Shown: positions 29,457 to 63,921 of the stretch, in pieces
Layout of the letters: every line of letters starts with the position of its first letter
How positions within the stretch are numbered: the stretch's first letter is position 1
Assembly (NCBI RefSeq): GCF_024661895.1
Contig: NZ_CP102453.1
Location: forward strand, 248,001-312,000
Length of the DNA: 64,000 bases
Direction: 5' to 3'
Source of the DNA: Fundicoccus culcitae
Lineage (GTDB): Bacteria > Bacillota > Bacilli > Lactobacillales > Aerococcaceae
The notes under the pieces: model-generated
What the model was told of the DNA's origin: nothing
What the model saw: only the letters and a program-made list of their open reading frames with translations
Database searches by the model: none
Made by a program: the position numbers and the translations under genes

Positions 29457-30329
29457 TCAAATTTCCGAATTTATTCTAAGTAATAAAGCTTCTAATTCTA
29501 ATTGCAAAATATTAGCGACTTCAGAAGCTCCAAAATGTGACATCAACCGAATGGATTCTTGACATAATTCTACTCCTTCATCTACTTGTCCAATTCTTAT
29601 TTTATAAACTCCTTTAATAAAATTCAAATGATTCTTATCATAGAAGTAGTTATGTTTAGATAATTTATACTCTATATCCTTAATCAATGGTGCAATTGGT
29701 TCTAAGTAATCTTGATCAAAAAAAAGATTGATAACATTCATCATAATGAGAGCATAATTTGATGAGTTTACTTGTAAATTATCATATCTAAGAGAGCGTT
29801 TATTAGCAGTATGACTTAAATTTTCAATTTGAGAACGATTCATAAAGAAAGTACTGTTACCAAATAAACTAACTTCGTAGTATTGCCATTCATCACTATT
29901 TAATAGATATTTGAAAATTACTTTTGCCTCTTCTTTATCAAACGGTTTTCCATAGATTTTTTTTAAGCGTTGATTCAATATAATAACATTGTGATAATGG
30001 CGTATATTGTCAGAATTCAAATATAGTTTAGTTTGTGAATCAATTAATTCAGATAGTTTAACAAGATTTTGTTTTCTATAAGCATCGCCATATTGAGCTA
30101 AAAATTGTTGTTGAGATTTATCACCAAGATCTTCCGATAAAAGTTTAAACTCACTAATATCAACGTTTATTCGCTTTAATAATGAAAGAAAATTTGACAA
30201 AGAAATATCGCTTTCATTTTTTTCAAATCGAGAAAGAAATTGTACTGATACTATTCCATCCGAAGTTTGTTTGAGTGTCATGCGCTTTGCTTTTCTAAAA
30301 TATCTAAAGGTACTACCAATATCTGACAA
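29457..30329 (-). CDS. Rgg/MutR-family transcriptional regulator 1
   Basis: A 290-residue cytoplasmic regulator. The N-terminal XRE-type HTH (about 3-58: FRYFRKAKRMTLKQ, VSVQFLSRFEKNE) is followed by an all-helical TPR-like domain, as in Rgg, MutR and ComR regulators that bind imported peptide pheromones. It is a paralogue of the regulator at 58.5 kb: shared spots include DIG near the start, R.Y.HNVI.LNQ, W..YE..LF, and KG.Y....G....G.EL near the C-terminus. The start is TTG with GGAG upstream. Divergent from a candidate peptide gene and a secreted-protein/ABC operon that it probably controls (inference). Confidence 0.88.
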   Translation of the reverse strand: MSDIGSTFRYFRKAKRMTLKQTSDGIVSVQFLSRFEKNESDISLSNFLSLLKRINVDISEFKLLSEDLGDKSQQQFLAQYGDAYRKQNLVKLSELIDSQTKLYLNSDNIRHYHNVIILNQRLKKIYGKPFDKEEAKVIFKYLLNSDEWQYYEVSLFGNSTFFMNRSQIENLSHTANKRSLRYDNLQVNSSNYALIMMNVINLFFDQDYLEPIAPLIKDIEYKLSKHNYFYDKNHLNFIKGVYKIRIGQVDEGVELCQESIRLMSHFGASEVANILQLELEALLLRINSEI

Positions 30330-30415
30330 AATAAATCATCTCCTTACTTGTTTTTTCATATATAACATATAGTGGAATTTTATTAATCAATGTTAATAAA
30401 TGTGTTAGACTTCTA

Positions 30416-30556
30416 TTGAAAGGGGGAGTTGTAATAAAAAGAATTTTATTATGTTGTTTGTTGCTTTTCTTTTGTATGGGAAATGAGGAGGGTTATACTT
30501 TAGAAAAATTTGTCGTTATGCCAGACTATGAGCATGTAATAGGTGAAAAGGATTAA
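30416..30556 (+). CDS. Candidate short signalling peptide next to rgg-1 (uncertain start)
   Basis: Open frame of 40-46 codons, too short for usual gene finders. After KR comes a hydrophobic core ILLCCLLLFFC and a charged tail ending EHVIGEKD. The only standard in-frame start is TTG 30416, which lacks an SD. A good SD (AGGGGGAG, 30421-30428) instead precedes a non-standard ATA at 30434, so the true start is unresolved. Size, basic-hydrophobic layout and position divergent from an Rgg gene resemble SHP-type pheromone precursors. An alternative 11-codon ORF at 30451-30486 in another frame is less likely. Confidence 0.4.
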   Translation: MKGGVVIKRILLCCLLLFFCMGNEEGYTLEKFVVMPDYEHVIGEKD

Positions 30557-30677
30557 CATATTATTTAAAAAAGCTGTACAATTATTATATATTGTTTAGA
30601 CTGTATAGTAAATGATTATGTTTTTTATTTTATATATCCAATCGATTCAGAGTTTAAAATATGAAAGGAATAAAATA

Positions 30678-31088
30678 ATGAGGAATAAATTTCTTAAAAA
30701 GGTTGCATTAACGTTCTTGTCAATCTCAATGCTTACTCCGATTACAACTGCAAATGCTGAAAAGGATGGCTTTTATTTTAACTTACTCATAAATGTTAAC
30801 GAGGGACGTGTTTATTCAGATAGAATTTTGAAAACTGATTCTGAAAATTATGGGGCTGTAACTACAAATTATAATGATTTAATTTGGTCAGATAAGGTTT
30901 ATTATAAAATCCACCGAAATAATTGGTATGGTGGACGCATAGAAGCAACAGGCTATTATCGAGTAACTGGGAATGGTACCCTTAATTTATGGTATTATAA
31001 CGGTCAGAGTGTCTATAATAGTAATTACCAACTTGAAGGTGATACTGATGTTCATAATGCAGTTGTATCGGGTATTTGGGAACCATAA
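30678..31088 (+). CDS. Small secreted protein of the first Rgg locus
   Basis: A 136-residue exported protein. Signal peptide 1-27: basic MRNKFLKK, hydrophobic core, cleavage expected at ANA/EKD. The mature part of about 109 residues is rich in Tyr, Asn, Gly and Trp and probably all-beta; it ends in VSGIWEP. Residues 84-100 (YGGRIEATGYYRVTGNG) faintly resemble the repeat in the secreted proteins at 59.6 and 63.4 kb. The frame is open from 30612, but AAAGGA fits the ATG at 30678. No Cys, no double-Gly leader. The overall look recalls DUF2712-type proteins; function unknown. Confidence 0.75.
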   Translation: MRNKFLKKVALTFLSISMLTPITTANAEKDGFYFNLLINVNEGRVYSDRILKTDSENYGAVTTNYNDLIWSDKVYYKIHRNNWYGGRIEATGYYRVTGNGTLNLWYYNGQSVYNSNYQLEGDTDVHNAVVSGIWEP

Positions 31089-31115
31089 TCGAAAAATTAT
31101 TTAAGGAGTTAAGAC

Positions 31116-32216
31116 ATGGTAGCATCAAAAAAAAAATTCTTTATTTTATATCTTGTATGCGCATTTATTTTAAGCGGGTGTTTCCCAACTGATAAAAGAG
31201 CGACCATCATAAATGAAGAAGAGGAGATTGATTCTCTGCAGGTACTAGATGAACATGTTGATCTCCAACTTACAGATAAAGTAAAAATTCAAGGGACAGT
31301 TAATATTGATTTTAGCCAAGAGTTTTATAATTACCAAACGAATTATTACCAATTTACTAAAGATGATCTAATGATCATTGATTCAGTGTTAGCAACAGAT
31401 GGCGAAGTGTATCGAGAAGAACATAATGATTTCTTTTATGAACTTTATCAATTGAATGATTCAAAAGCAAGTATTTACCCTGCTATATTAGATTATTCTA
31501 AAATTGGAAGAGAGTGGAATTTTTTAGTAACCTCATTGCTTCAAGTAGATAATATATATAATCTATCGTCTTTTGATAGTGATCCATATGATTTAGAACA
31601 AGTAACTATTGCTCATGCAATTAAACAGGCTAATGAAGTTATTGAAAAATTATCACTAGAAACTATGGGAGATCCTCAAGTTTTTACATTGGATTTTAAC
31701 ATACTTTCAGAGATAAATCAGTTACGATTGAAGGTTAAAACAGAATTGGATCAATTTGATGAACACGATCAAGGGCAATTGTTAGTATATCAATTAGGGA
31801 TTGAGGGTATTCCTATGGGTAATGGTTCATTTTCATTAGATAATGACGGGGTTTTTCCATACAATGGAAGCAATATGATATTCATTTATACTGAAGATGG
31901 TTTAACATGGCTTTCAATTGATGATGCATTTGCTAGACCTGTTGAAAAAGAAGAAATTACTAATCATATTAGTTTCGAAGAGTTACAAAGCTTGATTATT
32001 CAAGAATATGGACAAATAATTGGAATAAATGCAATCGTGATTGATGACATACGTATCGCTTTATTGCCTGAAATTAAAAATATAGAAAATTTTTCTTTTG
32101 AATTGAAACCATATTATCAAGTCAGGATAATTAGTGAACGGTCAAGTGGTGATAAAGAATCTACAATTATGACAATTGATTACTATTCATTATCAAACGG
32201 AGAAAGATATAAATAA
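31116..32216 (+). CDS. Lipoprotein of unknown function
   Basis: A 366-residue protein with a type II signal peptide: KKK, hydrophobic stretch, lipobox LSGC with lipidated C22. The mature part is acidic with alternating strands and a helix-rich middle (HAIKQANEVIEKL). The C-terminal 130 residues (ISFEELQSLIIQEYG, then ELKPYYQVRI) have a layout seen in YycH/YycI-like or PepSY-like extracytoplasmic domains, but I cannot assign a family. SD AAGGAG, 27 bp after the secreted-protein gene. It may protect against, bind or sense the secreted protein (inference). Confidence 0.75.
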   Translation: MVASKKKFFILYLVCAFILSGCFPTDKRATIINEEEEIDSLQVLDEHVDLQLTDKVKIQGTVNIDFSQEFYNYQTNYYQFTKDDLMIIDSVLATDGEVYREEHNDFFYELYQLNDSKASIYPAILDYSKIGREWNFLVTSLLQVDNIYNLSSFDSDPYDLEQVTIAHAIKQANEVIEKLSLETMGDPQVFTLDFNILSEINQLRLKVKTELDQFDEHDQGQLLVYQLGIEGIPMGNGSFSLDNDGVFPYNGSNMIFIYTEDGLTWLSIDDAFARPVEKEEITNHISFEELQSLIIQEYGQIIGINAIVIDDIRIALLPEIKNIENFSFELKPYYQVRIISERSSGDKESTIMTIDYYSLSNGERYK

Positions 32217-32220
32217 TTGA

Positions 32221-32254
32221 AAAACTCAGAGAAAGTTTCTCTCTGAGTTTTCTT
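32221..32254 (+). terminator. Internal terminator/attenuator of the first Rgg locus
   Basis: AAAACTCAGAGA pairs with TCTCTGAGTTTT around a 7-nt loop. It lies between the lipoprotein and ABC permease genes and would lower transporter expression relative to the secreted proteins. Confidence 0.75.
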
Positions 32255-32273
32255 ATAGGAGAGGGAAATATTA

Positions 32274-33044
32274 ATGAAATTATTTAAAATTGAGTTGAAC
32301 AAATATTTATTAACGAAATGGAGTTTAATTTCATTAGTATTAGCTTCTGCAATTTTCATATTTACCATGTACACATCTATTAATGAACAAGGCATCATTT
32401 ATTTAGTCGAAATTTTTATAGGTTTGTCTTATACTAAGAAATTATTCATAGTTGCGATAACCATTCCACTGGCTAGACTGTATGTCGATGATGTAAATAA
32501 TAAGTATTTAAATTATGTGATTAATCGCACATCGATTAAAAGGTATTCTTTGAATAAAGTATTAGTGAGTTTTCTTGGAGCTTTTATCCTGTCTATTGGA
32601 TCATTTGGGATAGTAGTTTTTATTTTTTCATTGATTGGGCTTCCAATCTACTCTAGAATAGATTTACTGCGTTTAAATCAATATTCATATTATGTAGATT
32701 TAATTGAAAATGGACATACAATATTCATACTATTTATATATGTATGGAATTATTCGCTTTCTGTAGCATTTTGGAATACTACTGGTTTATTATTCTCAAG
32801 CTATTTACCAAACAATTTTATTCCATATATAAGTCCATTTGTGATTAGTTATTACGTGGAAGAGTTTGCATTAAAACTACCCAATATGATTAGTATCTAT
32901 AGTTTAGGCCGATCAAGTCTTGCATTCCCCAATCAACCAATTTGGGTTAATCAACTTTATGTAACGGCATTTTTCTTGGTTCTTACTGGGACTGTTGGTT
33001 ACTTATTTTATAGACAAATCAAAAGGAAGGTGCCATATGCATAA
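32274..33044 (+). CDS. ABC-2-type membrane permease A (first Rgg locus)
   Basis: Integral membrane protein of 256 residues with about six hydrophobic segments (near 15-35, 50-72, 96-120, 160-180, 188-205 and 228-248). After segment two it carries YVDDVNNKYLNYVINR, the cytoplasmic 'E/D-x-G-like' stretch typical of ABC-2 exporters that move small peptides or antibiotics. No peptidase domain. SD AGGAGAGGG. It overlaps the second permease gene by 8 bp and would form a heterodimer with it, driven by the ATPase at 33.9 kb. Confidence 0.8.
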   Translation: MKLFKIELNKYLLTKWSLISLVLASAIFIFTMYTSINEQGIIYLVEIFIGLSYTKKLFIVAITIPLARLYVDDVNNKYLNYVINRTSIKRYSLNKVLVSFLGAFILSIGSFGIVVFIFSLIGLPIYSRIDLLRLNQYSYYVDLIENGHTIFILFIYVWNYSLSVAFWNTTGLLFSSYLPNNFIPYISPFVISYYVEEFALKLPNMISIYSLGRSSLAFPNQPIWVNQLYVTAFFLVLTGTVGYLFYRQIKRKVPYA

Positions 33045-33870
33045 TATTCGCTCAATTTGGTGGATGACACGGACGAACATCTCTAAATGGAGTCGCGATT
33101 TACGTATTATTTTAATCGTTATTTTATTAGCTACATTAATTCATATGCATTTATCAGGTCTGATTAATTTTGTTCATAGTGAGAACGAAATGATTAACTT
33201 TGCACTTTTGCCATTTTTAACAGAATCTCGTTATGGGAAGATTTTATTTATTTTACCGATATTTATTTTGTTTGCTGATGCTCCATTTATTGATAACAAT
33301 CAAATATTTCTTATTATGCGTAGTAACCGAAAAAATTGGATTTTATCTCAAGCATTGTACATTTTTATAACAAGCTTATGTTATGTACTTTGCTTAGCGG
33401 TCTTGTCTTGCATATTTTTCGTGCCTCGATTAGATTTTACTAATGAGTGGGGTAGCGTGCTTCACACTTTAGCAAAAACAGATATACGATTTCAGTTAAA
33501 TGTTCTAGTTAATTTCCCTAGGAAAATTATAGATTATTTTAGTCCATATCAAGCTATGTTCTTTAGTTTGATATTACAAACTTTGGTTATTAATTTACTA
33601 GGATTGATTATTATGTTAATTAATATTTGGTCTTCTCATCGTTATTTAGGAATGTTTTTTGCTGCAACACTATTAATGTTTGACGCTTTAATCTATTCAT
33701 CTGGGATATTGACTTGGGTATCTCCAATCACATGGATGCAACTATCGTCAATTAATATCAATGAAGGTTTATCTCAGCCTAATTTTTATCAGATATTATT
33801 AATTTTAATGCTATTATTTTGTGGATTATTATATCTGATTATACGGCGTGCACGCTGGTATGAGGTTTAG
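33037..33870 (+). CDS. ABC-2-type membrane permease B (first Rgg locus)
   Basis: Second permease subunit, 277 residues and about six membrane segments (near 23-43, 68-86, 106-130, 171-198, 203-226 and 252-272). It has a short cytoplasmic MRSNRKNWI stretch comparable in position to the coupling region of partner A. The frame is open from 32995, but AAGGAAGG fits the ATG at 33037, which overlaps the end of permease A. No family more specific than ABC-2 exporter is recognised. Confidence 0.78.
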   Translation: MHNIRSIWWMTRTNISKWSRDLRIILIVILLATLIHMHLSGLINFVHSENEMINFALLPFLTESRYGKILFILPIFILFADAPFIDNNQIFLIMRSNRKNWILSQALYIFITSLCYVLCLAVLSCIFFVPRLDFTNEWGSVLHTLAKTDIRFQLNVLVNFPRKIIDYFSPYQAMFFSLILQTLVINLLGLIIMLINIWSSHRYLGMFFAATLLMFDALIYSSGILTWVSPITWMQLSSININEGLSQPNFYQILLILMLLFCGLLYLIIRRARWYEV

Positions 33871-33887
33871 AAGGGGGCTATAGCAAA

Positions 33888-34541
33888 GTGGAAAATATCA
33901 TTGAAGTGAATCAAGCGACTAAAATAATCGGTGATAAGATTATTTTAGATAATATTAATTTAAGTTTTGAAACTGGAAAAATCCATGGAATCATTGGACG
34001 TAATGGAGCAGGAAAAACCATGTTAATGAAATCCATCTGTGGATTAATGAGACTTAGTTCAGGTAACATTCAAGTAGGTAAAATAAATCTAAATGAAAAG
34101 ACAGATGATATTCCAGAAGATATTGGAATTATTATTGAATCGCCAGGTTTTTTACCGCAATTTAGTGGGTTTAAAAATTTAAAGTTTTTAGCAGGTATTA
34201 AAGATTTGATATCCGATGATGAAATTCTACAAGCTTTAGAGATTGTTGGTCTAACACATGCAAAAGACCTAAAGGTAGCAAATTATTCTATGGGTATGAG
34301 ACAACGATTGGGGTTAGCACAAGCCTTTATGGAAAACCAACACATACTAATTTTAGATGAACCAATGAATGGTTTAGATAATCAAGGTGTGCAAGATATG
34401 CGGAAGTTATTACTTGAATTAAAAGATAGCGGTAGAACCATTATTTTAGCGAGTCATACACAAGAAGATATAAAGATTTTATGTGATACCGTCGTCGAAC
34501 TTGATCATGGTAAAGTTATTAACAAAGAGACATTTTCATAG
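33888..34541 (+). CDS. ABC transporter ATP-binding protein (first Rgg locus)
   Basis: Nucleotide-binding subunit of 217 residues with Walker A GRNGAGKT (about 37-44), ABC signature YSMGMRQRL (about 131-139), Walker B ILILDEP (about 150-156) and a switch His in ASHTQED. It resembles BcrA/CcmA-type ATPases of antimicrobial-peptide or lantibiotic-immunity exporters. The start is GTG after GAAGGGGG. Last gene of the operon, with a clean terminator after it. Confidence 0.93.
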   Translation: MENIIEVNQATKIIGDKIILDNINLSFETGKIHGIIGRNGAGKTMLMKSICGLMRLSSGNIQVGKINLNEKTDDIPEDIGIIIESPGFLPQFSGFKNLKFLAGIKDLISDDEILQALEIVGLTHAKDLKVANYSMGMRQRLGLAQAFMENQHILILDEPMNGLDNQGVQDMRKLLLELKDSGRTIILASHTQEDIKILCDTVVELDHGKVINKETFS

Positions 34542-57534: not shown

Positions 57535-58029
57535 ATGATTGACCCTTTAATTGAAGATGCCTTGTGGAATAATGTGGAAGACATTATGATTGAGGCAGAT
57601 AATGTTGCAAATGTTGCTACAACAAACACACTAAATCATGGGTTGCTGGTCTTATCGCAAATGAAATATTCTGTCATCCCCGTATTAACTCCAAAATCAA
57701 AATTAGCAGGTTTAGTAAGTATGCCACTAATTATTAATGGTGTGATGACGGATGATGCTTTTTTAACCGATCAATTGGATACAATGACTATTAGTGAAAT
57801 TATGTATGATAACCCTGTGACGATTAACTTAGATTCTGATTTGGAAGAAATTTTGCATTTGTTAATTGATAATAACTTTATCTGCGTCGTTAGTGAAGTT
57901 GATAATCATTTCTTAGGAATCGTTACACGGAGTGCCGTCATTAAACGTTTTAACAAATTTGTTCATACTTTTAGTAAACAAACAGAGTTAAAAGAAGTGG
58001 TTGACTATACTACAATTTTTCAATCATAA
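57535..58029 (+). CDS. cbpB: CBS-domain protein, probable c-di-AMP-binding CbpB/DarB
   Basis: Two CBS domains (about 15-75 and 90-150) in a 164-residue cytoplasmic protein. Size, domain pattern and place after murI-rdgB-yfcE match CbpB (B. subtilis DarB/YkuL), a c-di-AMP sensor that when unliganded stimulates Rel and, in Bacillus, pyruvate carboxylase (family knowledge). NHGLLVLSQMKYSVIPVL and DNNFICVVSEVDNHFLGIVTR (in parts) are the ligand-cleft strands. SD AAAGGTGAG. The assignment depends on context as well as sequence. Confidence 0.83.
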   Translation: MIDPLIEDALWNNVEDIMIEADNVANVATTNTLNHGLLVLSQMKYSVIPVLTPKSKLAGLVSMPLIINGVMTDDAFLTDQLDTMTISEIMYDNPVTINLDSDLEEILHLLIDNNFICVVSEVDNHFLGIVTRSAVIKRFNKFVHTFSKQTELKEVVDYTTIFQS

Positions 58030-58042
58030 TAAAAAAATCAAT

Positions 58043-58098
58043 ACCCCCATAGAAACAGTGAAATTAGTTACTCTAACTGTGTTCTATGGGGGTTTTTT
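58043..58098. terminator. Terminator after cbpB
   Basis: ACCCCCATAGAAACAGT pairs with ACTGTGTTCTATGGGGGT (one bulge), followed by six T; it may also stop the minus-strand peptide transcript. Confidence 0.9.
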
Positions 58099-58151
58099 AT
58101 CATAAATTGTTTAAAAGTGAAAAGATTTGAAAAAAATAAGTTAACTTTGGT

Positions 58152-58180
58152 TTGACAGTTAAATCATTTAACAGTACAAT
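58152..58180 (+). promoter_or_regulatory. Orphan consensus promoter with palindromic spacer
   Basis: Perfect TTGACA (58152-58157), 17 bp, TACAAT (58175-58180). The spacer contains the perfect 15-bp palindrome GTTAAATCATTTAAC (58158-58172), a clear candidate operator. No ORF with an SD follows until rgg-2 at 58509; the RNA would be antisense to the candidate peptide gene at 58272-58409 and could be a long rgg-2 leader. Confidence 0.75.
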
Positions 58181-58271
58181 ATTTTTAGGTAAACGATTAG
58201 CTTTTTTTGTATTCGTTCATATGAAAGAAATTTAGTTACACGTGAAGGTTTGTTCTCCATTGGTCAAAAAA

Positions 58272-58409
58272 TTACTCTAAATTAATAACTTCGATAATGC
58301 AATTTGGTAAATTGTGATTATTACTAAAATTATCCATTTGTCCAGTTGAAAAATGAAACAGAACCATTATAACGATAAAATACTTTCTGATTTTTACTCC
58401 TTTACTCAA
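58272..58409 (-). CDS. Candidate signalling-peptide precursor next to rgg-2
   Basis: A 45-codon ORF, TTG start, with a strong SD AAAGGAGGTG 8 nt upstream. The peptide has a basic N-terminus (MSKGVKIRK), hydrophobic core YFIVIMVLFHF and a polar tail STGQMDNFSNNHNLPN ending CIIEVINLE. It is divergent from rgg-2, as SHP pheromone genes are from their rgg genes, although it is longer than the usual 20-33 residues. The comparable ORF beside rgg-1 also has a GV.I(K/R)(K/R) stretch before its hydrophobic core. A pheromone role is inference. Confidence 0.55.
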   Translation of the reverse strand: MSKGVKIRKYFIVIMVLFHFSTGQMDNFSNNHNLPNCIIEVINLE

Positions 58410-58470
58410 AGACGACACCTCCTTTGTTACTAATAGACTATATTATTTTTGAATATAATGTCTATATTTA

Positions 58471-58484
58471 TAAACTATAGTTAA
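58471..58484. promoter_or_regulatory. Putative Rgg operator upstream of rgg-2
   Basis: TAAACTATAGTTAA contains the palindrome AACTATAGTT and lies 25 bp before the rgg-2 ATG. The first 12 bases are identical to the site at 59364-59377. An ATAGAC...GTCTAT inverted repeat lies just upstream (58434-58465). Confidence 0.5.
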
Positions 58485-58508
58485 ATCTAATATGAAAAGA
58501 GGGTACTA

Positions 58509-59366
58509 ATGAATGACATAGGAAAAGTGGTAAAACAAATCAGAAATGATAAAAGAATTACTCAGCAGTGTGCAATTGAAGGAATTGGTTCACTTACTTA
58601 TATATCAAGGATAGAAAATGGTTTAACTAGACCCTCATATGAAAAATTAATCAAGATATTAGATCGTTTAAATGTAACACCTACAGAGTTTTATAGATTA
58701 ATCCAACAAAATAATCCAAATAATCAATTTTCCTTTATTAATCGATTAACCAACATCATTAGAGAAAAAGATATTTACCTGATAAATAGGGAAATAGAAG
58801 ATGAAATTAAAAGATATAAAGAAGATAAAAATTATAGACATACTCACAATGTTATATTGCTTAATCAGTATAGAAATTTATTTTTAAATTTTCAACTAGA
58901 GAGTCAGCAAATTTCAAAGTTATCTGATTATTTGTTTAAAGTTAGAACATGGGGGATTTATGAAATTAATTTATTCAATTTATGTGTTGTTTTTTTTTCA
59001 AATAGTAACAATCAAGCTTTATTTAAAATCGCCACTGCTAGGTTGGGGAAACTTGTAAATAAAGATGCTTATTATACAAGTGTCTTTAGAATTGGTTTTA
59101 ATATACTTTTGAAAACGATTGAATCTAGTGATTTTTTCTTGTCTTCCTTGATAATTGAAAATTTGGGAGACATTCTTGATGGAACAACATTTTATTATGA
59201 GATTATTAAGCTAAAGTATATGAAGGGAATATATTTAATGAAGAAAGGTAACAATAAAGATGGACTTGAACTGGCTTTAATTGCTGTTGATTTAATGTAT
59301 AAATTGGGTGATGAAGTAAATGCAAGAGCACATAAAAAAGAAATAGAGAAATACTATTCGACTTAA
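58509..59366 (+). CDS. Rgg/MutR-family transcriptional regulator 2
   Basis: A 285-residue cytoplasmic regulator: N-terminal XRE-type HTH (about 3-60; VKQIRNDKRITQQ, LTYISRIENGLTRPS) and a helical TPR-like peptide-sensing domain. It is a paralogue of regulator 1 (DIG near the start, YRHTHNVILLNQ, WGIYEINLFN, KGIYLMKKG). SD AGAGGG. Its gene is flanked by two copies of TAAACTATAGTT, the second overlapping its stop codon and lying upstream of the secreted-protein promoter, so it probably activates that operon (inference). Confidence 0.88.
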   Translation: MNDIGKVVKQIRNDKRITQQCAIEGIGSLTYISRIENGLTRPSYEKLIKILDRLNVTPTEFYRLIQQNNPNNQFSFINRLTNIIREKDIYLINREIEDEIKRYKEDKNYRHTHNVILLNQYRNLFLNFQLESQQISKLSDYLFKVRTWGIYEINLFNLCVVFFSNSNNQALFKIATARLGKLVNKDAYYTSVFRIGFNILLKTIESSDFFLSSLIIENLGDILDGTTFYYEIIKLKYMKGIYLMKKGNNKDGLELALIAVDLMYKLGDEVNARAHKKEIEKYYST

Positions 59367-59412
59367 ACTATAGTTTAGCTAAAATTTGCTTAAATTTTTT
59401 CTTATGTATAAT
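59364..59412 (+). promoter_or_regulatory. Putative Rgg operator plus promoter of the second locus
   Basis: Perfect 14-bp palindrome TAAACTATAGTTTA (59364-59377), whose first bases are the rgg-2 stop codon, lies about 30 bp before TATAAT (59407-59412). No good -35 is present (TTGCTT is only 15 bp from the -10), the arrangement expected for activator-dependent transcription. Confidence 0.6.
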
Positions 59413-59602
59413 GAATGTAAGTGGATGCTGAGATTGAAATGAAAATGATTTAAATATTTTTTATATTACAGAATATATTTATACATTTATTTCAAATTTC
59501 TGCGAAGCTAATAATCTTAATAGGAGTGGTGCTAAATCATATTTTATGAGTTACTTTAATCATATGTCAATTTCTATGTCAAAATATACAAGGAGAAGAT
59601 AA

Positions 59603-59923
59603 ATGAAAAAGAAGGTATTAAGTTCACTAATTACAATAATGTCCATTTTTTCTTTCATGGTTACTACTAACGTAGAATATGTGCAAGCTAATGAAAGCAC
59701 TCAAATAATTGAACCAATGTCTGCAATATACGTAACTCATCAACAATATATATCAAGCTTACCTGCTCCTAATTCGTTATATATCACTCGAACACAAAAT
59801 GGTAGACGGTATGCTGGAACTGTTTATTATACGGGAAGAGCAGATTTGATAAATGGTAACTTCATCGCTCATTATAGTGGAACTTTATATTTCACTGGCC
59901 AAATTCAATCAGACACTCATTAA
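59603..59923 (+). CDS. Small secreted protein with one NGxxYxG repeat (second Rgg locus)
   Basis: A 106-residue exported protein. Signal peptide 1-29 (MKKK, hydrophobic core, cleavage expected at VQA/NES). The mature part of about 77 residues has one copy, about 59-93, of a repeat with pattern L-x-[IV]-[ST]-[RQ]-[ST]-x-N-G-x-x-Y-x-G-x-[VLI]-x-Y-[TS]-G-x-A-x-[LI]-I, seen twice in the protein at 63.4 kb. No Cys and no double-Gly leader. SD AAGGAG. An 18-codon ORF (59546-59602) ends directly before the ATG and could couple translation. Function unknown; possibly a bacteriocin or surface factor. Confidence 0.8.
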   Translation: MKKKVLSSLITIMSIFSFMVTTNVEYVQANESTQIIEPMSAIYVTHQQYISSLPAPNSLYITRTQNGRRYAGTVYYTGRADLINGNFIAHYSGTLYFTGQIQSDTH

Positions 59924-59996
59924 TATTTGAAGAAAAGTAATCGATTAAAATCTTTTTGTAAAGCTTTTTTAAAATGAAAGATATTGAATGAAATTG

Positions 59997-60043
59997 AGGT
60001 ATTTGCTGACAACAGTAAAATGTAGTAGGTAAATACCTTTTTT
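59997..60043 (+). terminator. Internal terminator/attenuator of the second Rgg locus
   Basis: AGGTATTT pairs with AAATACCT across a 26-nt loop, followed by T. It separates the secreted-protein gene from the transporter genes, as in the first locus. Confidence 0.6.
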
Positions 60044-60065
60044 ATAGAATGGAGGAGAGTGTCTG

Positions 60066-60773
60066 ATGAGCATCATTAATATAGAAAATATACAGAAATC
60101 CTTTGGACAACATCAAGTTTTAAAGGATGTAACGTTCGCTATAACGCAACCGGGTATTTATGCATTGGTAGGACCCAATGGGTCAGGTAAATCGACGTTA
60201 ATGAATATTATGATGAACCTTATAAAAAGTGACAGTGGAAAAGTAGAATTATTGGGCGAATCTAACAAAAATGTACAAATATTTAACCGAGTTTCTTTTT
60301 TAAAAGATAATACGGTGTTGTACCCTTACTTGACGGGGTTTGATCATCTTAATTATGCTGCTAAAGCGTACGGGGTTAATGCAGCGCAGGTCAATCAAAT
60401 AGTAGATAAAATGGGAATCCAAAGTTATGTTCATAAACGTACAGGAAAATATTCATTAGGTATGAAACAACACTTGTTAATTGCTTTATGTATTTTAAAT
60501 AATCCAGATGTTTTAATTATGGATGAACCGTTAAATGGACTAGATCCAACAAGTATTTTGAGCGTAAGGGATTTAATTAAAGCTTTAGGTAATGATGGTA
60601 AAACGATTCTAATTTCATCACATATTTTAAGTGAAATCGATGCGGTGACAAGAGACGTTTTATTTCTTAAAGATGGTGAAGTTTATGTTGAAAAATTATC
60701 CGATTCGCATGCTGAAGATAGATATAGTGAAATTTACCGTGATTCTTTAATACTGAATTCAGGCGGTGAGTAA
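60066..60773 (+). CDS. ABC transporter ATP-binding protein (second Rgg locus)
   Basis: Nucleotide-binding subunit of 235 residues: Walker A GPNGSGKS (about 37-44), signature YSLGMKQHL (about 131-139), Walker B VLIMDEP (about 149-155), switch His in SSHILSE. In the BcrA/CcmA-like group, as in the first locus. SD GGAGGAGAG. Its stop abuts the permease start (TAAATG), so the two are translated together. Confidence 0.93.
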   Translation: MSIINIENIQKSFGQHQVLKDVTFAITQPGIYALVGPNGSGKSTLMNIMMNLIKSDSGKVELLGESNKNVQIFNRVSFLKDNTVLYPYLTGFDHLNYAAKAYGVNAAQVNQIVDKMGIQSYVHKRTGKYSLGMKQHLLIALCILNNPDVLIMDEPLNGLDPTSILSVRDLIKALGNDGKTILISSHILSEIDAVTRDVLFLKDGEVYVEKLSDSHAEDRYSEIYRDSLILNSGGE

Positions 60774-63314
60774 ATGAAACACTTATCTTTTGAAATGTTA
60801 AAACATTGGCGGAATAAGACTATTTTTCTTGTCATTTGTAGTGCAATCATTCTATCGTTAGCCAATATGATTTTCTTAAATGCTCAAATAGGTCAAAATA
60901 CGAATGAACAAAATGACTTAAATTTTTATGCTTCAGACTTATACCAAGCTGTCATACCGTATGGATCCATCGCAGTTGATCAATTTGGTGAACCTATTTT
61001 AACAGAAGCACAGGAAAGAGTGAATACTTTTTTAGTGCCTGTTGAGGATGAAACAAATAGTGATATTGTTGCGTATATACCATCTACTAGCTATCCTTTT
61101 TTTCAAGCAGTGGCTGATGCGGTGGTAGAAGATGATATCGTTCTGTCTGAACAATTAGAAGCAGATTTAAAATATGCATTGATTGCATCCGAACATCAAT
61201 ATCATCAAATAGAGGCAAATCCAAATTATCAATCAACTGGATCAGTGACTTACATTAAGAAAGGGTCAACCATATTATTTGGCATTTTATCCTTGCTATT
61301 ATTTTTCATTATTGCTATCCGTATACATAGTGAAGATTATGAAAGAGGAAGTTTAGTTTTCAATTGGACTTTACCAAAATCTAGACAACAAATAATTATT
61401 ATGAGATGGATTAGTGTCATAATCCTTGCTATCATTTATGTTTTATTAATATTAACAGCAATCTCCATGTTTTCAATGATTAGTGGGGACGGATTAGGAG
61501 ATTGGCTGTATCCAAATCGTGTAATGAGTGAAAATCCATCGGTTATGACCAATCTTGAACTAATCGTACGTATGATAGGTGTTTGGTTATTACGTGTGGG
61601 TGTCGTTTCCGCCCTTGGATTGCTAGTTGCAAATATTATAAGGCTAAGAAATGTTGGAACAATCATGGGTAGTTTTTTCATAATGTTGATTTATTTTTTC
61701 ACTAATTACTTACCATCCTTACAAGAACCTTGGAATATTTTATATTTTAATTATATTGACCAACTTATTGGCGGTCGTTATCTCGATTTAAGTGTCACTG
61801 AACAAGGGCAAACAATAATTGGTGTTCAATTTATTTCACCTACTTCCTTAGTCATGCCGTTATTAATTAAGCTCAGTTTAATTATCTTGTTCTTGTTTCT
61901 AGCGAATCAATGGAACGAATTAGGCACATTTGATGGCTTTTTATCAAATAACGATCAGCAACCAACACCTTTCTATCAAACCAAATGGTATGGAGTTGGT
62001 TTTGAGTGGCAAAAACTACAACAAATTATTGATAATAAAACGTCAATGACTCTAATAGTCCTTTTCACAATTGGGTTGTATCTACTTTTAGTATTTAATG
62101 ACCGTCCTTTATTAGATGAGACTATCAATCCATCTAGTGTTTCTTCTTATGAGAATATAGTGACTTATAATCAAGTTTTTCTAGATGACATTAGTAATAT
62201 GAGTAAGGAAGAACAGGAATTTATGCGTTTTGTTCAAGATGATTTAACTCTTCAAAACGACTATTATCAAAATGCAATTAATCAACTAAATAATCGTTCA
62301 GCTGCTTATCAAACGAACAATAGTCATGATTTTTATGATAATTTTAACTTTGAAGTAGATGAATTTTTTGGTAAGGGTGATCAAATGGATATGATTGGTC
62401 GCAGTGGTGAGAGTATCTATTTGAATGGTGAATATGCTTCTAATTTTGCTTATGAAGTATCACTCGATCGACTAACTGAGCTTAAAATTCGTGATATTAA
62501 ACCAATCCCTCAAACTCACATTCATCGCACAATTTATGATCCATTAAAGAATCCTACAGATAATTTTGTAGAGAATTTAAAGTATCAACCAGCAGACCAT
62601 TCATTTTTGACTTCTTTATATCGATTATTTTTTTATTATCGATTAGATGTTATTTTGCTTATTATCTTATTACTTGCAAGTGGAGCAGGGTTTACGATTG
62701 ATCGGGAAAAGGGGAATGGTCTAAGTTGGATGTTCACCTTACCTCGAAAACGACGTAAAGTTTATAATGATAAAATTATGGCTGGAGTTTTACGGATTAT
62801 TACACTACTCGCTTTATTTATTGCTATTGTATTTATTTTAGGAATGCTTACGGATGGTTTTGGACAAACACGTTTTCCAATCTTACATTATGATTATTTA
62901 GCAGAACATGCCCAAAATGGGACTGGTTTTGAGGAAAGTTACTCTTGGATGAATTTAGGGACATTTATTATTCAGTCAATAAGTATTTTATTGTTAATTA
63001 GTTTGTTTTTACTAATTTTAGCTAATGTTTTATCCTTATGGATCAAACAGCCACTATTACTCTTTTCAATTGTCGGTTTATTAATGGTTGGTGGGTATAG
63101 TTTCATACACATTCCAGCCTTAAACGGGATAATCAGATTTACACCATTCCCTTATATCGATATTATGGGATTCCTGACGGGAGAAATAGCTGTTCAAAAT
63201 AATCTAGCATCGATGGATTATATGATGGGAGCAATTGTGTTATTAGCTTGGTCACTTGTGTTGTATCTTTTCGGTGTCAATCGTAGTGAAAAAATGTCAA
63301 ATGTGATTAGTTAA
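60774..63314 (+). CDS. Double-length ABC-2 permease (second Rgg locus)
   Basis: An 846-residue membrane protein that looks like two permeases fused in tandem. Half one (about 1-410): membrane segment about 17-37, extracytoplasmic loop, then five segments from 167. Half two (about 420-846): segment about 435-455, a 180-residue loop, then five segments from 630. The cytoplasmic coupling motif occurs twice: EDYERGSLVFNWTLPKSR near residue 185 and REKGNGLSWMFTLPRKRR near 643. No peptidase domain. One chain would form a full transmembrane channel with two ATPase copies. Substrate is probably one of the neighbouring secreted products or an antimicrobial (inference). Confidence 0.85.
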   Translation: MKHLSFEMLKHWRNKTIFLVICSAIILSLANMIFLNAQIGQNTNEQNDLNFYASDLYQAVIPYGSIAVDQFGEPILTEAQERVNTFLVPVEDETNSDIVAYIPSTSYPFFQAVADAVVEDDIVLSEQLEADLKYALIASEHQYHQIEANPNYQSTGSVTYIKKGSTILFGILSLLLFFIIAIRIHSEDYERGSLVFNWTLPKSRQQIIIMRWISVIILAIIYVLLILTAISMFSMISGDGLGDWLYPNRVMSENPSVMTNLELIVRMIGVWLLRVGVVSALGLLVANIIRLRNVGTIMGSFFIMLIYFFTNYLPSLQEPWNILYFNYIDQLIGGRYLDLSVTEQGQTIIGVQFISPTSLVMPLLIKLSLIILFLFLANQWNELGTFDGFLSNNDQQPTPFYQTKWYGVGFEWQKLQQIIDNKTSMTLIVLFTIGLYLLLVFNDRPLLDETINPSSVSSYENIVTYNQVFLDDISNMSKEEQEFMRFVQDDLTLQNDYYQNAINQLNNRSAAYQTNNSHDFYDNFNFEVDEFFGKGDQMDMIGRSGESIYLNGEYASNFAYEVSLDRLTELKIRDIKPIPQTHIHRTIYDPLKNPTDNFVENLKYQPADHSFLTSLYRLFFYYRLDVILLIILLLASGAGFTIDREKGNGLSWMFTLPRKRRKVYNDKIMAGVLRIITLLALFIAIVFILGMLTDGFGQTRFPILHYDYLAEHAQNGTGFEESYSWMNLGTFIIQSISILLLISLFLLILANVLSLWIKQPLLLFSIVGLLMVGGYSFIHIPALNGIIRFTPFPYIDIMGFLTGEIAVQNNLASMDYMMGAIVLLAWSLVLYLFGVNRSEKMSNVIS

Positions 63315-63350
63315 GAATTAGAATTTTCTAAATTGATTAGGAGTGAAAAA

Positions 63351-63866
63351 ATGATAAAACGATTGGTTAGTATTTTATTTGTTAGTATGTGTGTTCACGG
63401 TCAGTTATTAATCGTTCCTATGTCGGTTAATGCTGAAAATAATCCAACGCAAGACAGCCTAACCGTTTCTGAAACTTATACAATTGATGTGGGTTCTCAA
63501 GTATCAGAGTACTTACAAGTGAGCCGGTCAAGTAATGGGAATCGATATGTTGGACAATTGCAATATTCTGGCAAAGCAAGTATCATTAATGGCAAAATTC
63601 TGGCAGAGTATAAAGGGTATATTGAACAACCCTCACATGTTGCTATAAGTACACAAGATAACTATACCTATTCAGCAAATAATGCAATGAACATTTCCCA
63701 TATTCAATTTATTTCATTAGAAGAATGGATTCCCGAAACGTTATCAATTAGTCAATCGATTAATGGCATGGATTACAGCGGCGAAATAGCCTATACAGGA
63801 GATGCCCAGCTTATTGGAGATGAAATGATATTTTATTACGAAGGAATCATTGAAGCTGATTCCTAA
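63351..63866 (+). CDS. Secreted protein with two NGxxYxG repeats (second Rgg locus)
   Basis: A 171-residue exported protein. Signal peptide 1-28 with cleavage expected at VNA/ENN. Two copies of a roughly 37-residue repeat: about 55-91 (LQVSRSSNGNRYVGQLQYSG) and about 131-167 (LSISQSINGMDYSGEIAYTG), each continuing A-x-[IL]-I and ending Y-x-G-[YI]-I. The linker (about 92-130) is polar. TTG 63333 is in frame, but TAGGAGTG supports the ATG at 63351. Last gene of the operon, followed by a terminator. It is evidently homologous to the 106-residue protein at 59.6 kb. Function unknown. Confidence 0.8.
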   Translation: MIKRLVSILFVSMCVHGQLLIVPMSVNAENNPTQDSLTVSETYTIDVGSQVSEYLQVSRSSNGNRYVGQLQYSGKASIINGKILAEYKGYIEQPSHVAISTQDNYTYSANNAMNISHIQFISLEEWIPETLSISQSINGMDYSGEIAYTGDAQLIGDEMIFYYEGIIEADS

Positions 63867-63870
63867 TAAA

Positions 63871-63920
63871 AACCTACTATTTCAGATTAGTGATTCTAAG
63901 CCGAAATAGTAGGTTTTTTT
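63871..63920. terminator. Bidirectional terminator at the end of the second Rgg locus
   Basis: AACCTACTATTTC pairs with GAAATAGTAGGTT, flanked by A and T runs. Confidence 0.9.
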
Positions 63921-63921
63921 A

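Follow-up and report, generated by a model that had tools for sequence, protein, structure and literature searches.

The locus analysed here lies at 58.1-63.9 kb of a 64,000-nucleotide stretch (hereafter the window; positions 248,001 to 312,000 of contig NZ_CP102453.1) of the 3.22-Mb chromosome of Fundicoccus culcitae (Aerococcaceae), and comprises an Rgg-family regulator gene with a divergent peptide gene, two genes for small secreted proteins and the genes of an ATP-binding cassette (ABC) transporter. We interpret it as an Rgg/pheromone quorum-sensing locus whose output would be Sec-secreted, bacteriocin-like small beta proteins, together with an ABC system that most likely protects the producer, and we place the probability of this reading at roughly 0.5. 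The reading builds, at the level of sequence, on the genes themselves, the homology of the secreted family, its linkage to one ABC family, a pair of predicted operators and a conserved pheromone end; from these we infer activation by the peptide, antibacterial activity of the products and an immunity role for the ABC system. Terminators bound the locus on both sides (58037-58100 and about 63870-63921), and its features, in window coordinates and with protein lengths in amino acids (aa), are as follows.

58037-58100, plus strand: terminator that closes the upstream CbpB-like gene and sets the locus apart (hairpin -25.5 kcal/mol, z -5.2)
58152-58180, plus strand: promoter-like TTGACA-17-TACAAT (11/12 consensus matches), earlier misread as the start of a peptide gene
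58272-58409, minus strand: pro-pheromone gene, 45 aa MSKGVKIRKYFIVIMVLFHFSTGQMDNFSNNHNLPNCIIEVINLE, TTG start at 58409, divergent from rgg, with a strong ribosome-binding site AAAGGAGG 7 nt upstream
58437-58464, minus strand: pro-pheromone promoter TAGACA-16-TATAGT
58471-58484, no strand: palindromic box 1 TAAACTATAGTTAA, lying between rgg and the pro-pheromone gene and predicted to be an Rgg operator; its centre is 35 bp from the -10
58509-59366, plus strand: Rgg-family transcriptional regulator, 285 aa (Rgg_C PF21259, 1.6e-25; TIGR01716, 1.4e-22; HTH_3, 1.2e-9)
59364-59377, no strand: palindromic box 2 TAAACTATAGTTTA, a perfect palindrome and predicted Rgg operator before the secreted-protein operon
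59386-59412, plus strand: putative operon promoter TTGCTT-15-TATAAT, hexamers read from the sequence, -10 starting 36 bp from the centre of box 2
59603-59923, plus strand: small secreted protein, 106 aa, signal peptide and one beta domain (mature part about 76 aa, net charge about 0)
59996-60045, plus strand: attenuator or partial-terminator hairpin between the 106-aa gene and the ABC genes (-17.9 kcal/mol, z -5.0, then T6)
60066-60773, plus strand: ABC ATPase, 235 aa, BcrA/LanF-like (PF00005, 5.9e-26)
60774-63314, plus strand: fused double ABC-2 permease, 846 aa (PF13346, 3.4e-6; transmembrane profile)
63351-63866, plus strand: secreted protein, 171 aa, signal peptide and two tandem copies of the domain of the 106-aa protein (isoelectric point 4.1)
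63870-63921, plus strand: terminator closing the operon (-22.1 kcal/mol, z -6.5)

Directly upstream, at window 57535-58029, is encoded a CbpB-like cyclic-di-AMP-binding CBS protein (NF041630, 150.8 bits against a cut-off of 125). A previous sequence-only reading had listed the contents of the locus and interpreted them as a quorum-sensing-controlled secretion system with an undescribed product family. The list is partly confirmed, holding with one correction that concerns the peptide gene, and the interpretation is partly supported, in that quorum control and the undescribed family stand while the role of the ABC system as exporter does not. In the comparisons below, L-numbers denote loci and G-numbers genomes, G000 being the genome of the window; Aerococcaceae relatives compared include Falseniella ignava and Ignavigranum ruoffiae.

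Regulator, pro-pheromone and predicted operators

The PF21259 and TIGR01716 scores of the 285-aa regulator exceed the curated cut-offs and its residues 3-275 align with solved Rgg structures (PDB 4yv6, 4e-19), which, with the HTH_3 match, upholds its original identification as an Rgg-type protein. Divergent from it, the minus-strand 45-aa open reading frame (ORF) has the layout of an exported pro-pheromone. The candidate peptide gene had been placed instead on the plus strand, at 58152-58235; that ORF lacks a ribosome-binding site, and the TTG taken for its start belongs to TTGACA, the -35 box of a near-consensus promoter. The credible pro-peptide gene is the one at 58409-58272.

Five Rgg genes are present in the genome. 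The nearest paralogue, at L213 (38% identity), has a divergent 49-aa ORF ending PNEIIEIINIK, and the 10-mer match between the pro-pheromone C-terminus PNCIIEVINL and PNEIIEIINI of L213 was reached in 0 of 1000 shuffles. A likeness to L215 (GIIELIDG) is suggestive by eye and not significant in the same 10-mer test. Two further Rgg genes, at L219 and at window 29457-30329, have divergent ORFs ending PDYFDVIGENDN and PDYEHVIGEKD, a match likewise found in 0/1000 shuffles; these ends appear to represent a second pheromone type, and the scan revealed no obvious ribosome-binding site for either ORF. The second of these genes belongs to another Rgg locus within the window (29457-34541), in which rgg, on the minus strand, is divergent from a 46-aa ORF ending MPDYEHVIGEKD (30416-30556) and is accompanied by genes for a secreted protein (30612-31088, about 138-158 aa), a lipoprotein of 366 aa, permeases of 256 and 291 aa and a LanF-like ATPase of 217 aa. 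In L026, the fused permease is preceded by a set of like composition (lipoprotein, permease, permease, ATPase).

Across the 3.22-Mb genome, the palindrome TAAACTATAGTTWA is confined to two sites, both of them in the locus, against about 0.2 (0.21) genomic occurrences expected from a second-order model; it was noticed by eye at both sites before the genome was searched, and the two-site count is therefore post hoc. The promoter geometry is independent of that choice of motif, the distance from palindrome centre to -10 being 35 bp for the pro-peptide and 36 bp for the 106-aa gene. Rgg2 and ComR promoters are described as without a canonical -35 and with an inverted repeat in its place (PMC4162386). 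The exact palindrome was not found at L213, L215 or L219, hence the operators there differ. Together, the palindrome pair and its spacing support, without proving, control of both the pro-peptide gene and the operon by Rgg. The proposal of quorum-sensing control is thus strengthened by the divergent Rgg/pro-peptide pair, by the two-site palindrome at both promoters and by the pheromone C-terminus kept at a second Rgg locus.

In the mechanism that we propose, the 45-aa pro-peptide would be exported and cut, and its C-terminal end (around PNCIIEVINLE) would be re-imported by the oligopeptide permease and bind Rgg, which would then act at TAAACTATAGTTWA beside the -35 regions of the pro-peptide promoter, giving autoinduction, and of the operon promoter. 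Both the attenuator-like hairpin (59996-60039, then T6) and the closing terminator reported previously are present as judged by folding energy and z, and the operon may yield much 106-aa product and, through transcription past the hairpin at 59996-60045, less ATPase, permease and 171-aa protein. The 106- and 171-aa proteins would leave by Sec and not by the ABC transporter, whose long extracellular loops and LanF-like ATPase may serve to recognise the cognate secreted protein at the membrane and remove it, conferring immunity.

The secreted beta-domain family and its ABC partner

Both secreted proteins have Sec-type signal peptides and mature parts devoid of cysteine. The repeat common to them scores 99 against a shuffle maximum of 62 (0/2000 shuffles), and the two halves of the 171-aa protein, a tandem duplication, score 95 against a maximum of 59 (0/2000). 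These results agree with the first description of two repeat-sharing proteins with Sec signals, no cysteine and no double-Gly leader. Neither protein was assigned to a Pfam family at E ≤ 1, and the only NCBIfam match of the 106-aa protein was to LMxysn_1693 (NF046016; 6.6e-4, 19.7 bits, below the 70-bit cut-off). We rejected the LMxysn_1693 'colonization' family as its home, the similarity being at the level of the signal peptide, with a match that starts at residue 1; a reverse search with the small-family profile did not recover LMxysn_1693-type proteins (best E 0.18). Nothing matched when plasmids were searched with the window permease and the 106-aa protein, and a scan of genome contigs with the 171-aa protein gave no relatives.

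Family members were chosen by their position beside ABC genes and, nearly always, by a signal peptide. The motif [YWF]xGx[LIVW] is present in 19/19 of these ABC-adjacent small domains (3.2 expected), and a second such strand in 18 of the 19 (0.6 expected). When hidden Markov models (HMMs) are built with one group left out, that group in nearly every case ranks directly below the training rows, and models built without the window proteins find the 106-aa protein at E 3e-6 and the 171-aa protein at E 0.007; L027 was not recovered when omitted together with L025. An AlphaFold2 model from the aligned mature domains of 18 diverged members is a four-stranded antiparallel sheet, with a predicted local distance difference test score (pLDDT) of 89 and a predicted template modelling score of 0.71, the pLDDT of an earlier model of six full-length members having been only 49. 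Compared with the PDB, the 18-member model had no match with E below 0.001, and in a second look the best Z of 3.7, to MrkH/YcgR-like beta domains, was not above background; the absent match would be no proof of a new fold. The family can be defined by a signal peptide followed by a beta domain of about 75 aa with two YxGx[LIV] strands, encoded beside an ABC-2 permease/ATPase, and the window proteins have all of these. That they form an undescribed family, as had been suggested, is supported by the lack of a Pfam or NCBIfam assignment and by homology across orders; the profile-HMM and structure-prediction checks advised at the time yielded no known family and a confident beta model.

The best NCBIfam match of the ATPase is to the lantibiotic-protection model TIGR03740 (1.4e-53, 181.9 bits), and no C39 peptidase domain was detected in it. 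In each half of the permease, the transmembrane profile indicates a first transmembrane segment, a long extracellular loop (about 36-165 and 442-623) and then further transmembrane segments. Elsewhere each half has a gene of its own (415 and 373 aa), with the ATPase gene between the two, which identifies the window permease as a gene fusion. The 'fused ABC exporter' of the sequence-only reading accordingly needs rewording: an ATPase and a double permease are present, but as separate genes, the fusion joining the permease halves, and a role in exporting the secreted proteins is not upheld.

Searches starting from the permease and ATPase, including a scan with an ATPase segment, located homologous cassettes in Falseniella and other Aerococcaceae, at a second site in the same genome (L027), in a metagenome-assembled genome (MAG) of Erysipelothrix (L042), in Anaerococcus (L045), in several Bacilli and in a more distant Bacillota family (G813/G851). 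The ABC partner of the small proteins in these relatives is of the same family, fused or split, and split-permease loci carry repeated lipoprotein genes. Within the order (395 genomes) this partner was found only in Aerococcaceae; it is present in 10/399 Bacilli genomes, including that of the window, and in 19 of 101 G628 relatives, often without a small gene. In the G813/G851 arrays, a single ATPase gene is accompanied by several small and permease genes. Two small genes of G813 each adjoin a permease gene, one ATPase serving three permeases, and their signal sequences are identical at 79/81 nt, the mature domains at 19/64 residues (30%). An independent search with the small-family profile as query found small genes adjoining fused or split ABC genes in most loci of one Bacilli genus (L184, L185, L188, L190 and L191), the exception being L187.

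Variation around the cassette was seen at several loci. In L184 and L185 (Bacilli genus g150), small beta-domain genes alternate, beside a split ABC system, with genes for lipoproteins of about 190 aa (lipobox LSAC or LHAC) that match no Pfam family and are possibly immunity lipoproteins. At L178 (G225:C1:628000-640000, Falseniella ignava), four small beta-domain genes accompany secreted partners of 180-190 aa, and the 12-kb stretch holds no ABC-2 permease of this family. A 142-aa protein of L076 (4836-5264, minus strand), encoded near permease genes, joins a signal sequence near-identical to that of the small family to an apparently unrelated mature part, possibly through a domain swap.

Links to peptide sensing recur at some of these loci. 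In the same genome, L213 (G000:C1:445000-458000) combines an Rgg gene divergent from a pro-peptide gene with genes for a short secreted protein, an ATPase and a related permease, and L219 (G000:C1:431000-442000) combines such a divergent pair with an ATPase and a permease. At four loci of one Bacilli genus (L064, L118, L122 and L127), a small protein and a permease are encoded beside an XRE-TPR regulator of 416-423 aa, and an ORF of 42-48 aa that carries an export signal begins in a 4-nt overlap with the stop of the regulator gene; in L064 the regulator gene has an in-frame stop. The sequence AAGAATnnTCGGCCGATATTCTT or close variants occur upstream of three small genes of the same genus (L122, L127 and L129). 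Rgg and these NprR-like regulators differ, which argues for repeated coupling of the module to peptide sensing. At L192 (G214:C1:1373000-1384000), the divergent neighbour of an Rgg-like regulator is a degenerate match to the small family (E 3.4e-4, one internal stop), possibly a decayed version of the locus.

Proposed toxin and immunity roles against other functions

That the secreted proteins are weapons and the ABC system their immunity is argued from the nearness of the ATPase to the lantibiotic-protection subfamily, from the near-identical signals and diverged mature domains of the G813/G851 arrays, from the many permeases without a small gene, which resemble orphan immunity, and from the split-permease versions with repeated lipoprotein genes, as in LanFEG-LanI. 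That the pairing recurs in distant Gram-positives points to a weapon or signal governed by crowd sensing and provided with a protection system. Several observations weigh against this. The ATPase score of 181.9 is under the curated TIGR03740 cut-off of 309.75, and the mature proteins of the family are hydrophilic and for the most part neutral or acidic, where typical membrane-active bacteriocins are cationic. At L178-L183 of Aerococcaceae, small genes are found without this ABC system. The neighbours were originally expected to be conserved together, which holds for the small protein and the ABC genes (in Falseniella, the Erysipelothrix MAG, Anaerococcus and other Bacilli) but not for Rgg, linked to such small genes only within the window's own genome and elsewhere replaced by an NprR-like regulator or absent. 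The four XRE-TPR regulators are mutually homologous (27-44% identity) and from a single genus, so their four cases may be one event.

The main rival, which we regard as unlikely but deserving of real weight, would make the small proteins not toxins but ligands or extracellular partner subunits of the permease, in a sensing or substrate-handling ABC system, with the quorum switch controlling a machine for envelope remodelling or for export of some substrate. The adjacency of small and permease genes in G813, the long extracellular loops, the non-cationic, mostly neutral or acidic products and the encoding of the two-domain 171-aa form after the ABC genes would all suit such a partnership; small genes without ABC genes in several Aerococcaceae, and ABC genes without small genes in many genomes, would not, and mature domains that have diverged strongly behind near-identical signal sequences look like antagonistic diversification. 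Much less probable is export of the small proteins by the ABC transporter, as initially claimed. Despite the tight linkage, nearly all members have Sec-type signal peptides, there is no double-Gly leader or C39 domain, and solitary small genes occur at several Aerococcaceae loci where this ABC is absent from the vicinity; as Sec substrates, the proteins probably have no need of it. We set equally little store by surface or host-interaction factors for colonisation under pheromone control, for which the LMxysn_1693 'intestinal colonization' match of the 106-aa protein (6.6e-4, below cut-off) could speak, the Listeria protein lying in an island that also holds ABC genes (PMC9320622), since that match covers the signal peptide from residue 1 on, and the family profile misses proteins of that type. 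Least probable of all is that Rgg and the operon are chance neighbours: the homologous cassettes of other Aerococcaceae have no Rgg gene next to them, yet the palindrome is confined to the locus with near-equal promoter spacing, and similar Rgg-ABC arrangements exist at two other sites of the genome.

Beyond the locus itself, the favoured toxin-and-immunity interpretation can be widened, tentatively and at somewhat less than even odds, to a class of widely distributed, undescribed Sec-secreted beta proteins, every one of them with a fused ABC-2 permease that recognises it. These would be pheromone-controlled modules of toxin and ABC immunity, captured independently by Rgg and NprR-like switches and diversifying by swaps of the mature domain behind a fixed signal sequence. 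The locus links peptide quorum sensing in the little-studied Aerococcaceae to a secreted family and an ABC-2 subfamily without a name in the databases searched, and it supplies a pheromone end and an operator open to direct testing. If the products are antibacterial, they would constitute a new class of bacteriocins whose immunity partner can be recognised, and a function could be given to many 'orphan ABC permease' genes of Gram-positive genomes.

Comparison with known systems

Literature searches found no description of this locus type. As far as the sequence allows, its regulation would belong to the Rgg/SHP class, with the regulator, the divergent pro-peptide gene with ribosome-binding site and the inverted repeats beside the -35 all present, whereas the secreted products belong to none of the known product families compared. 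The streptococcal Rgg/SHP systems (Rgg2/3-SHP, RopB and ComR) likewise have an Rgg protein, a divergent small hydrophobic pro-peptide gene, shp2/shp3 being divergent from rgg2/rgg3, and, at the promoters of pro-peptide and targets, a weak -35 with an inverted repeat next to it (PMC4162386). They differ in that the pro-peptide is here 45 aa in length (22-23 for SHP2/3), the pheromone ends (IIEVIN and, at other loci, PDYxxVIGExD) are not those of streptococci, and what is produced is a Sec-secreted beta protein together with an ABC-2 system. The pneumococcal RtgR/RtgS-RtgAB system also combines Rgg and an SHP with an ABC transporter and several diverse small secreted peptides (PMC7595303), but those peptides have double-Gly leaders and an ABC exporter with a C39 peptidase. 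The present locus lacks the hallmarks of double-Gly/C39 exporter systems (Rtg, Blp), having Sec signal peptides and an ABC-2 permease without a peptidase, and no C39 domain in its ATPase.

The ABC genes resemble LanFEG/LanI self-protection (TIGR03740) and BcrAB-type systems in the ATPase, which is nearest to TIGR03740, in the ABC-2 permeases, which are two genes in relatives, and in the repeated lipoprotein genes of one group. Here, by contrast, no lantibiotic genes were seen, the permease halves are larger, fused and endowed with long extracellular loops, and the ATPase falls under the cut-off. Lactococcin 972, small, rich in beta structure and exported by Sec, has a large membrane protein and an ABC ATPase linked to it, in which it is like this locus; neither secreted protein, however, matched an NCBIfam Lcn972 protein model at E ≤ 1, the motif is a different one (YxGx[LIV], present twice) and the permease family is different. 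The XRE-TPR regulators of L064, L118, L122 and L127, with their overlapping pro-peptide genes, we take to resemble NprR-NprX (RRNPP) of Bacillus, except that the four Bacilli loci link the regulator to a small-protein/ABC cassette and not to a protease gene. By analogy, then, the locus of F. culcitae may work like Rtg and like LanFEG immunity.

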